Assembly (NCBI GenBank): GCA_022705575.1
Contig: JAKJED010000007.1
Span: forward strand, 1 to 37,923
Reading direction: 5' to 3'
Length of the DNA: 37,923 bases
Source of the DNA: Patescibacteria group bacterium
GTDB lineage: Bacteria > Patescibacteriota > Minisyncoccia > RBG-13-40-8-A
The notes under the pieces are model-generated. The model was not told where the DNA came from. It searched no databases and saw only the letters and a list, made by a program, of their open reading frames with translations. Numbering within the stretch: position 1 is the stretch's first letter; every line of letters starts with the position of its first letter. The position numbers and the translations under genes were made by a program. Positions 739 through 23,883 of this stretch are shown here, piece after piece.

Positions 739-1539
739 ATGAAGAAAAGAATTAAAAAGATAAAAAGAAACAAGGGGGAGAAAAAAAGAGTTAAAAAAAC
801 AGCGAAAAAGATAAAAATATCGAGAAAATCGAAAAAAGTTTTGAGGCACAAATCCCGACGTTCGTTGAAAACGAAGTCGGGACCCCGACATCGAAGATCG
901 TCGGGGAAAATAAAGAGAATAAAAAAGTATAAGGCAAAAATATCCAAGTTTAAAAATGTAATTGGTAGAGGGGCCCTAGAGCAGTTATTTGAATCATTGG
1001 TCAAGGTTAAGCTAATGAAATTCTTTTTTCGTAATCCGATTGATGTTTTTTCGACAAGAGAGATTTTGAAAATGGCACGAGCCAATAAATCTGCCGTAAA
1101 GCAAGAGATTAAAAAATTGGAAAAAATCGGATTAATTGATAGCAAAAAAAGACAAGGAAGAATTGTTTATTTCTTAAATCCCAATTTTGATTTTTTGGAA
1201 GAATTGAAAAATTTGATTTTAAAATCAACAGTTTCTTCAAAAAGTAAATTGGTTAACGATATTCGTAAAACGGGAAATATTAAATTATTGATTTTGGGTG
1301 GGATTTTTAGAAATAGTGAAACAGATGGAGCCGATATTTTGATTGTTGGCGACAAAATAAATCCGAGAAAATTAACAACATTTTTAAAAGATTTAGAAGC
1401 AGAGGTGGGTAGAGAATTGAATTGCGCTTCAATGTCAGCAAAGGAATTCAATTATCGTTATGATATGTATGACCGTTTTGTACGCGATTTAATTAATGAA
1501 AATAAAGATATTTTGATAAATAAATTGAATTTGTGGTAG
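739..1539 (+). CDS. Winged-helix regulator with nucleotidyltransferase-like C-terminal domain
   Basis: The protein has 266 residues. Residues 1-75 are an extremely Lys/Arg-rich, low-complexity leader. Residues ~77-155 form a winged-helix unit (ALEQLFESLVKVKLMKFFF, then FSTREILKMARANKSAVKQE and the wing SKKRQGRIVYFLNPNF). Residues ~170-266 resemble a nucleotidyltransferase-fold tail (IKLLILGGIFRNSETDGADI, with YRYDMYDRFVRDLI at the end). In known CPR relatives the conserved part begins near 'R..vL.lFlrNp', so the real start may lie downstream and the basic leader may be extra. Residues 39-56 are encoded by two tandem G+C-rich palindromes. A TAAAAT box ends 6 nt before the ATG. Likely a DNA-binding regulator; target unknown. 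Confidence 0.75.
   Translation: MKKRIKKIKRNKGEKKRVKKTAKKIKISRKSKKVLRHKSRRSLKTKSGPRHRRSSGKIKRIKKYKAKISKFKNVIGRGALEQLFESLVKVKLMKFFFRNPIDVFSTREILKMARANKSAVKQEIKKLEKIGLIDSKKRQGRIVYFLNPNFDFLEELKNLILKSTVSSKSKLVNDIRKTGNIKLLILGGIFRNSETDGADILIVGDKINPRKLTTFLKDLEAEVGRELNCASMSAKEFNYRYDMYDRFVRDLINENKDILINKLNLW
853..906 (+). repeat. Two tandem palindromes inside a coding sequence
   Basis: TCCCGAC (853-859) pairs with GTCGGGA (876-882), with inner TTCGT/ACGAA. It is followed at once by CCCCGAC (883-889) pairing with GTCGGGG (900-906). The segment is far richer in G+C than the gene around it and encodes SRRSLKTKSGPRHRRSSG (residues 39-56). The same TCCCGAx/xTCGGGA core recurs at 26021-26040 and 26476-26490. 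Confidence 0.75.
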
Positions 1540-1627: not shown

Positions 1628-1675
1628 CCGTGGCCTGCCTGCCGGTAGGCAGGTTCGAGCCCACGCGCGCCCACA
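1628..1675 (+). pseudogene. 3' fragment of a second tRNA, T arm split by a 20-bp palindrome
   Basis: CGTGG (1629-1633) and CCACG (1661-1665) form a perfect T stem and TTCGAGC (1654-1660) is a canonical T loop. CGCGCCC (1666-1672) plus A looks like a 3' acceptor strand. Between the 5' T-stem strand and the T loop sits a 20-bp near-palindrome (1634-1653). The 5' half of this tRNA (expected GGGCGCG start) is absent: tRNA-Val ends only 6-7 nt upstream. The acceptor sequence differs from that of tRNA-Val, so this is not a duplication of its tail. It is probably non-functional. Confidence 0.65.
1634..1653 (+). repeat. GC-rich near-perfect palindrome
   Basis: CCTGCCTGCCGGTAGGCAGG is self-complementary except for one pair. 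It is the insert that splits the tRNA fragment. A CCTGCCTGCC-like arm also occurs at 20390-20430 and at 27721-27757. Confidence 0.8.
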
Positions 1676-2226: not shown

Positions 2227-2859
2227 ATGGAACAAAAAGTGCAACAAACAGCAAAAGAATTTTTAAAAAGAATACAAGAAAAGCTGCCAACAGAAAAAGC
2301 CGATAAACCGAGCATTATTGGAATTGTTGGAATGATTGGTTCAGGTAGGACGCTTTTGGCAAAAACATTGATTGAGAATGTTAAAGGTGCAGTTTTAATT
2401 TCTGCTAACAGTGCGAGGTGGCTTTTGAAAGAAAATAATTTGGGATGGGGAGAAAATGTTTATGAGATTTTACTTTATGTTGCTGAATGGTTAGTTAAAA
2501 ACGGCTATATTGTTGTTTATGATGGCAATCAAGTTGATAAAAATAGGCGAGAGGCGATTAAGGAGCTTGCCGATAAATTGAGCGCAAAATATCATCTTTT
2601 AAAAATTATTACATCCGCAGCAACTGCGGAAAAATATTTGCGCGAAAAATATACAGAAACTCCGCATAATACTTTTGAAGATTATTGGCCAGGAACAGGC
2701 GTCGATGATATTGTGCAAAATCTTCACGAAAGGAATAAAGACTTTTTTGCTATAGATCAAGAAATTCCAAAACCTGAATTTTTTGATGAAATCGAAAACG
2801 AAGGCACGATTGAGGAATTCAAACAAAAGATAGTTGATTTGGCAGAAAAAATCAAATAA
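2227..2859 (+). CDS. P-loop kinase-like protein with Arg in Walker A
   Basis: A 210-residue cytosolic protein. Residues ~29-47 hold a P-loop (SIIGIVGMIGSGRTLLAKTL) where the usual GxxGSGKT lysine is arginine. A strand ending IVVYDGNQVDKNRREAI (near 97-113) resembles the acceptor region of AAA_33/zeta-toxin/polynucleotide-kinase-like enzymes, where Asp-Gly and downstream Arg contact substrate. The C-terminal half is acidic and helical. The start is fixed by a strong purine run (AGGGGGG, about 2217) just upstream, which is unusual among genes in this window. It is monocistronic, with a hairpin after the stop. A nucleotide-dependent phosphotransferase is the best guess; the substrate is unknown and the Lys-to-Arg change could impair catalysis. 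Confidence 0.8.
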   Translation: MEQKVQQTAKEFLKRIQEKLPTEKADKPSIIGIVGMIGSGRTLLAKTLIENVKGAVLISANSARWLLKENNLGWGENVYEILLYVAEWLVKNGYIVVYDGNQVDKNRREAIKELADKLSAKYHLLKIITSAATAEKYLREKYTETPHNTFEDYWPGTGVDDIVQNLHERNKDFFAIDQEIPKPEFFDEIENEGTIEEFKQKIVDLAEKIK

Positions 2860-23010: not shown

Positions 23011-23883
23011 ATGAATAAAACTACAAAAGAATTAATTTTGGGAGAAATTTTAATTTTATTGGAATTTTTGTGTTGGTGGATGTTGAAATTGGTTTTTTAT
23101 GGAAATAATTATTTTATCAGTCATTGGTTGTTGGTTGTAGGGATTTTTATTTTATTCGGTATTGTCAGTTGTTTGGCAATGCTTTTGGTTAAAAATAAAA
23201 AAATTCTTTTAGGCGGATTTTTTATCGGACTATTGTCTTTTTTTATTTTTTTTAACGACAAATTAATATATTATGCGATTGTTTTAGTATTGTTATTTTT
23301 GGCGTTTTTATTTGGTTTGAGAAAAATCAGAAAAGAAGAAAAAATACAAGTTGATTTGGACTTTTGGAGAATTTTTAAAAGAGGATTACCGATATTTATT
23401 ACTGCCTTAATTTTGGTTGCTTCTATGGTTTATTATTTTTCTCCGGAATTAATGAATAAAAAAAACAACAAAATAACCATTCCCGAAAAAACGATTGATG
23501 TGTTTTTAAAGCCATTTGAAGGATTGATTCAGGAAAAACTTCCTTTAGAAGTTAATTTGGATTCTAATGCAAGCAAAATTTTGCAAAACACGCAAATTGA
23601 AGAATTACAAGCGAAATTTGGTATTAAAATTGAAAAACAAGATACCGGCAGGCAGGTTTTGTATAAAATAATTGATAATCAAGTGAACAATGTAACTGGC
23701 GCTTATCAGTATTTAATTCCATTGGGATTGGTGATAGGATTGTTTATTATTTTAAAGATTATCAGTATTTTATATGTTGCGATTGTAATTATGTTGAGTT
23801 GGTTAACAATCAAGATTTTAATGAAACTTAATTTTGTAAAATTTGAAAAAGAAAACAGAGAAGTAGAAACAATTAGTTTATGA
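23011..23883 (+). CDS. Uncharacterised membrane protein coupled to dnaJ
   Basis: A 290-residue protein with four hydrophobic helices in the first ~110 residues (LILGEILILLEFLCWWML, LLVVGIFILFGIVSCLAMLL and two more) and another at ~133-150. A soluble, charged extracytoplasmic segment follows (~152-228, TIPEKTIDVFLKPFEGLIQE ... GRQVLYKIIDNQVNNVTG), then two C-terminal helices (~232-275). I recognise no family. Its TGA overlaps the dnaJ ATG in ATGA (23880-23883), a sign of translational coupling, and it sits 34 nt after dnaK. The place between dnaK and dnaJ suggests a link to membrane-protein quality control or heat shock; this is inference only. Confidence 0.85.
   Translation: MNKTTKELILGEILILLEFLCWWMLKLVFYGNNYFISHWLLVVGIFILFGIVSCLAMLLVKNKKILLGGFFIGLLSFFIFFNDKLIYYAIVLVLLFLAFLFGLRKIRKEEKIQVDLDFWRIFKRGLPIFITALILVASMVYYFSPELMNKKNNKITIPEKTIDVFLKPFEGLIQEKLPLEVNLDSNASKILQNTQIEELQAKFGIKIEKQDTGRQVLYKIIDNQVNNVTGAYQYLIPLGLVIGLFIILKIISILYVAIVIMLSWLTIKILMKLNFVKFEKENREVETISL

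Follow-up and report, generated by a model that had tools for sequence, protein, structure and literature searches.

Islands that use tyrosine integrases to enter tRNA genes leave an intact tRNA with a displaced 3′ half downstream. In the mitochondrial atp6 gene of Allomyces, an inserted endonuclease ORF supplies a new gene end that takes the place of the displaced original. Rickettsia palindromic elements (RPE) are short palindromes dispersed in genes and spacers. REPs are also described as short palindromes dispersed in genes and spacers (PMC3733652). SegB, a GIY-YIG homing endonuclease of phages T4 and T6, is reported to cut within tRNA genes, with a preferred motif (RAWTSGAAC) that is the T-loop sequence on the other strand, and to be enriched near tRNAs of many isotypes (PMC2988022, PMC13096335).

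Here, we examine a tRNA fragment in the genome of a Patescibacteria group bacterium (GenBank assembly GCA_022705575.1; 656 kb in 52 contigs). The window, i.e., the whole stretch of DNA that was analyzed, comprises the 37,923 nt of contig JAKJED010000007.1 from position 1 on. We consider a relic of a tRNA-splitting homing-type element the likeliest identity of the object it holds. More precisely, we give a probability of roughly 0.6 to the reading that the fragment is what remains of a GIY-YIG (SegB-like) homing-type element that split a tRNA-Val gene, re-formed the tRNA and displaced its 3′ half. The main weight of the finding lies in the recurring arrangement, more than in the window relic itself. 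A search of open-access PMC text returned no description of the palindrome or of the tRNA/GIY-YIG/half-tRNA arrangement reported below.

Results

The window carries an intact tRNA-Val(CAC) at 1548-1621 on the forward strand (ARAGORN; Rfam RF00005, 68.6 bits). After a single T (1622), it is followed on the same strand by a palindrome-interrupted tRNA 3′ half, which by reading of the sequence spans about 1623-1673 and comprises the variable region, T arm, acceptor strand and A73. The first letters of this fragment, AAAATC (1623-1628), lead into the 5′ strand of the T stem, CGTGG (1629-1633). The 20-bp near-palindrome CCTGCCTGCCGGTAGGCAGG (1634-1653) then occupies the T-stem/T-loop junction, i.e., positions 53|54, and one G/T pair is the sole flaw in its inverted repeat. 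The T loop TTCGAGC (1654-1660), the 3′ strand of the T stem CCACG (1661-1665), the acceptor strand CGCGCCC (1666-1672) and A73 (1673) complete the half.

A preliminary description of this DNA had reported a perfect T stem, a T loop and an acceptor strand with a palindrome between T stem and T loop, just after an intact tRNA-Val of different sequence and with the 5′ half missing. It was accurate on each point: 6-7 nt lie between the tRNA and the remnant, 17 of 31 positions are identical to the intact tRNA, and reading of the locus finds no 5′ half upstream of the fragment, since just 8 nt separate the stop codon of the upstream gene from tRNA-Val. Neither ARAGORN nor Rfam matches the fragment as a tRNA or other RNA, and no group I intron or other Rfam family was found at the window locus or at that of the relative G003. 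An intact tRNA with the same end, TTCGAGCCCACGCGCGCCCA, for which the preliminary description had proposed to search, does not occur in the window genome, where the window itself is the sole match. A tRNA with an intron was considered and rejected: because the 5′ half is missing, removal of the insert leaves an incomplete tRNA, and the intact tRNA that had been foreseen as a refutation does not appear. A tRNA that functions in split or intron-containing form, with its pieces joined again in RNA, might draw on the well-kept T stem and acceptor strand and on the minimum-energy fold of 1548-1675, in which the 5′ acceptor strand of tRNA-Val pairs with the fragment. However, no 5′ half lies nearby, an intact tRNA-Val(CAC) is already present and the hairpin breaks the T loop, and we find such a function scarcely credible.

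The tRNA lies between two conserved genes. The upstream anchor gene (739-1539, forward strand; 266 aa, no Pfam family) adjoins tRNA-Val(CAC) in most of the relatives read; a homologue is present in 115 of 132 relatives, and tRNA-Val(CAC) occurs at 22 of the 30 best anchor loci, almost always immediately after this gene. The downstream anchor (2227-2859, forward strand) encodes an AAA-type ATPase/kinase (PF13671). The locus exists in empty and occupied states. In G004 and G001 it is empty, i.e., the anchor gene, tRNA-Val(CAC) and the AAA gene follow one another with nothing between, and the end of the tRNA is tens of nt from the next conserved gene, versus 605 nt in the window. The window spacer at 1674-2226 is absent from the same place in these two genomes and holds short broken ORFs without a Pfam match; the nearby pseudogenes of the preliminary description are thus plausible, if unproven.

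The closest relative by anchor protein (70% identical) is G003, from a sister genus. There, an orphan tRNA 3′ half, GGGTTGCAGAAGTCCGTGGTTCAAATCCACGCGCGCCCA, lies 1 kb downstream of tRNA-Val(CAC) and runs from the 3′ strand of the anticodon stem onward, with a small ORF and a T2SSG-like pilin between the two. Its best match among 215 tRNAs is the tRNA-Val(CAC) of G005. The window half is identical to the G003 orphan half at 26 of 31 positions and to the 3′ half of the G005 tRNA-Val(CAC) at 24 of 31, versus only 17 of 31 for the adjacent intact tRNA-Val. Matching tRNA families, whose absence from related genomes had been named as an objection, do exist there. By sequence alone, the window half scores slightly higher as tRNA-Ile than as tRNA-Val (39 vs 29), so that its Val isotype leans on position and on G003. 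The best reading of the window remnant is a displaced 3′ half whose isotype is that of the intact gene, tRNA-Val(CAC); G003 makes this case more clearly than the window does.

An orphan 3′ half behind an intact tRNA is what textbooks describe for a tyrosine-integrase island. The integrase could have recombined within the anticodon loop of tRNA-Val, the element would have supplied the 3′ end anew, and the original 3′ half would have stayed at the far end; the island would later have been deleted, and the palindrome would have arrived afterwards. G003, with about 1 kb of extra DNA still in place, agrees with this, as does the start of its half at the anticodon stem, which we take to be a known integrase site. 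However, the ORFs tested with Pfam near the window tRNA include no integrase, and instead of the identical core expected of such islands, the intact tRNA and the displaced half share only those 17 of 31 positions, although an old event could have diverged. An integrase island would also leave unexplained the cross-phylum palindrome at 53|54, the GIY-YIG ORFs and the mirror-image 5′ halves described below, and we regard it as unlikely. Of the attachment-site remnant proposed in the preliminary description, the scar of something that targeted the tRNA is supported; no integrase was seen in the ORFs tested, and the partner that recurs is a small GIY-YIG nuclease gene.

Two other relatives carry tRNA pieces at this locus. 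G043 has a tRNA 5′ half ending in the anticodon, and G007 has, in order, an 11-nt 5′ piece (weak, with a score of 22 against 16 for the control), a GIY-YIG ORF and an intact tRNA-Val(CAC). No GIY-YIG gene or remnant was found at the window locus or between the tRNA and the fragment in G003.

The window copy of the palindrome is an exact match to the unit CCTGCCTRCCGGYAGGCAGG, which occurs at ≤1 mismatch in 77 of 132 relatives and in four copies in the window genome, the reversed control giving 0 in both cases; the window holds no second copy, even at 3 mismatches (0 expected). Specificity for tRNAs was rejected, as most copies lie elsewhere, and because the palindrome is so widely dispersed, protein genes included, it is not specific to a tRNA-splitting element. 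One copy with 1 mismatch (L003, G000:C18:7861-7880) sits in frame in a topoisomerase-like zinc-finger gene and, by eye, adds LPAGRQ-type residues. At L181, L185, L187, L190 and L192, the palindrome interrupts the loop of a second frequent palindrome, GGATCCCGGGTC/AAGCCCGGGAT.

From a sample of 93 copies drawn regardless of context, 6 lie inside tRNA remnants and 13 in loops of stems ≥6 bp, versus 3.8% of control positions, a figure that overstates independence because related repeats were included in the test. A palindromic repeat that prefers the loop edges of DNA hairpins, with the tRNA half as a mere convenient target and no link to a nuclease element, would fit this excess and also the clustering of D-arm copies at 21|22 or 23|24. 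However, it leaves the presence of a tRNA half unexplained, tRNA remnants receive their 6 of 93 copies while making up a tiny fraction of the genome, and many T-loop copies adjoin GIY-YIG genes. We consider this preference a distinctly doubtful explanation.

The junction seen in the window recurs. A gapped search of 384 genomes of the class returned a tRNA-Pro 3′ half (L218, G368) with the palindrome exactly at 53|54, and the third exact match in the class (L223) forms a tRNA-like hairpin but is no clear tRNA. Eight palindromes lie downstream of the TAGCTCAG box, at 21|22 (four), at 23|24 (three) or adjoining another hairpin (L237). A scan of 84,980 species yielded 20 further palindromes directly before the TTCRANYCC T-loop motif, on 18 contigs. 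These represent Bacteroidota, Ignavibacteria, Omnitrophota, Neomarinimicrobiota, Gracilibacteria, Moraniibacteriota and further groups, and the isolate Salinimicrobium sediminis is among the sources. Almost every site is a tRNA 3′ half (L310 and L315 have no clear tRNA character), and these loci were selected by the palindrome search itself. Most of the genomes compared come from metagenome assemblies, and they do not count as independent samples. Since the same junction recurs in independent genomes, we take the meeting of fragment and palindrome to be beyond chance. In a tRNA array of a Flavobacteriales MAG (L314), tRNA-Lys and tRNA-His are complete apart from a palindrome at 53|54, and no displaced half was seen.

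The decayed tRNA invaded by a palindromic element, as first suggested for the window, agrees with these data as to the tRNA 3′ remnant and the palindrome; the point of insertion, the recurring 53|54, is not a random one. A specific version supposes two side-by-side tRNA-Val genes, one of which lost its 5′ half by deletion before the dispersed palindrome entered the dead copy. Tandem tRNAs are common, and a repeat found in 77 of 132 relatives was at hand. Against this, the fragment and the intact tRNA agree at little more than half of their positions (17 of 31), and random decay predicts neither halves that end near the anticodon nor a palindrome on the same junctions, which makes a decayed tandem copy very improbable. 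The palindrome itself may mark the end of the element, stem from sequence picked up at the cut or belong to a dispersed repeat attracted to the edges of hairpin loops. A role in stopping the displaced half from competing in folding was also considered and is not supported, as the predicted fold still pairs the half with the 5′ strand of the tRNA.

At 10 of the 20 palindrome/T-loop sites, a GIY-YIG ORF ends 11-144 nt before the palindrome; of the 10 sites without one, three have <200 nt of upstream sequence. Pfam confirms the GIY-YIG family for three of these upstream ORFs. An intact tRNA of the same isotype precedes the nuclease ORF at most of the 10 GIY-YIG sites, and the usual order runs from the intact tRNA through GIY-YIG to a 3′ half of that tRNA, which carries the palindrome at 53|54 (L302, L304, L305, L307, L312, L316). 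No GIY-YIG lies near several of the 3′ halves that carry the palindrome (L218, L318), and GIY-YIG was found within 400 nt of just 4 of the 93 sampled palindromes. The tRNA-linked GIY-YIG proteins cluster on a tree, yet do not form one clade. We rejected the idea that GIY-YIG copy number drives palindrome number, as the two correlate only weakly across 132 genomes that are not independent (Spearman 0.31).

In Salinimicrobium sediminis (L312, about 380-1240), an intact tRNA-Leu(CAA) is followed by two tandem units, each with GIY-YIG and a palindrome-bearing tRNA-Leu 3′ half; the nuclease ORF of the first unit is broken. Near position 23591 of G035:C6 (L106/L250), a tRNA-Trp-like gene with the palindrome in its D loop lies beside a GIY-YIG gene, and a second hairpin replaces its anticodon-to-T-stem part; no intact tRNA-Trp was found among the G035 tRNAs read. 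The exact palindrome/T-loop junction had no match in IMG/VR, where one D-arm version matched; with this single D-arm case, phages were rejected as carriers. One IMG/VR contig (L320, 494-1100) has a 5′ tRNA half with a D-arm palindrome, a GIY-YIG ORF and another 5′ half that stops close to the anticodon; its last ORF is HNH-like by eye, and the piece tested had no Pfam match.

The mirror image of the order with a displaced 3′ half is common in the class of the window: a 5′ half, often with a D-arm hairpin, then a GIY-YIG ORF and an intact tRNA of the same isotype. Among 46 free-standing GIY-YIG ORFs from 19 relatives, a tRNA on the same strand lies ≤200 nt downstream in 15 and upstream in 5, with none on the opposite strand; by our estimate from tRNA density, well under one such proximity is expected by chance. 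A matching scored 5′ half was found upstream of 9 of the 15 ORFs with a downstream tRNA. When 75 intact tRNAs from two genomes were searched, using neither the palindrome nor GIY-YIG for selection, a displaced half was found near about nine of them, versus 0 for the reversed control at the same threshold.

The window genome itself has two loci of this kind, one with a 5′ half bearing a D-arm hairpin, a GIY-YIG ORF and an intact tRNA-Ile(TAT) (L282, G000:C34:2200-3100), the other with a 5′ half, a truncated GIY-YIG nuclease and an intact tRNA-fMet (L283, G000:C41:18700-19500). Elsewhere, an intact tRNA lies between both halves of an older one, i.e., tRNA-Val in tRNA-Val (L238, L231, L242), tRNA-Arg in tRNA-Arg (L228) and tRNA-Ala in tRNA-Ala (L114/L220); inverted repeats adjoin the inner tRNA in L238, L231 and L228.

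Discussion

A chromosomal relative of SegB that cuts tRNA genes, together with copying by break repair, would explain both the displaced halves and the same-strand order. For the window, we propose that a single-domain GIY-YIG nuclease, like phage SegB, would have broken an older tRNA-Val(CAC) gene, and that the element would have been copied in by break repair with its own piece of tRNA. A complete tRNA would have been re-formed at 1548-1621 and the old 3′ half left downstream; the nuclease gene may later have been deleted in the window lineage, leaving the 6-7 nt between the tRNA and the remnant. The DNA cleavage, the homing, the choice of tRNA half carried by the element and the former nuclease at this spot are our inference. 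Because the window locus has no nuclease gene, its link to a GIY-YIG element is drawn from structural analogy and from G007, and for the same reason we file it as a probable relic, not a member, of the SegB-like elements.

A broader conjecture, which we hold only tentatively and think rather less likely than its contrary, is that these are small mobile elements found across phyla and built from a single-domain GIY-YIG nuclease and a 20-bp palindrome. They would enter tRNA genes at fixed points beside the conserved boxes of the D loop and T loop, re-form the tRNA with a half of their own and leave displaced, hairpin-broken halves behind, and the palindrome would also spread alone through genomes and genes, like REPs with their transposases.

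In these reduced genomes, tRNA genes are essential and usually single-copy, and the pattern suggests that selfish nuclease elements repeatedly break and replace them. If true, this would help explain the large acceptor-stem and T-arm differences between close relatives here and would assign a function to numerous small GIY-YIG genes that are now anonymous. The pattern can be tested in a sequenced isolate, Salinimicrobium sediminis.

Compared with the Allomyces atp6 element, the target here is a bacterial tRNA gene, and the displaced half often bears a hairpin. Unlike tyrosine-integrase islands, the present loci have no integrase in the ORFs tested, and the class of the window often shows displaced 5′ halves accompanied by GIY-YIG. 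SegB is a phage gene, whereas the present ORFs, of about 80-100 aa, lie in bacterial chromosomes, and the portions of the SegB accounts that we consulted mention neither a palindrome at 53|54 nor displaced tRNA halves of matching isotype (PMC2988022, PMC13096335). The likeness to SegB, as far as those accounts go, lies in a free-standing GIY-YIG gene that adjoins tRNA genes. The dispersal of short palindromes through genes and spacers, with one copy in frame in the topoisomerase-like gene, recalls RPE and REPs; the 20-bp repeat described here differs from both in being common to several phyla and in recurring at fixed positions in tRNA halves.
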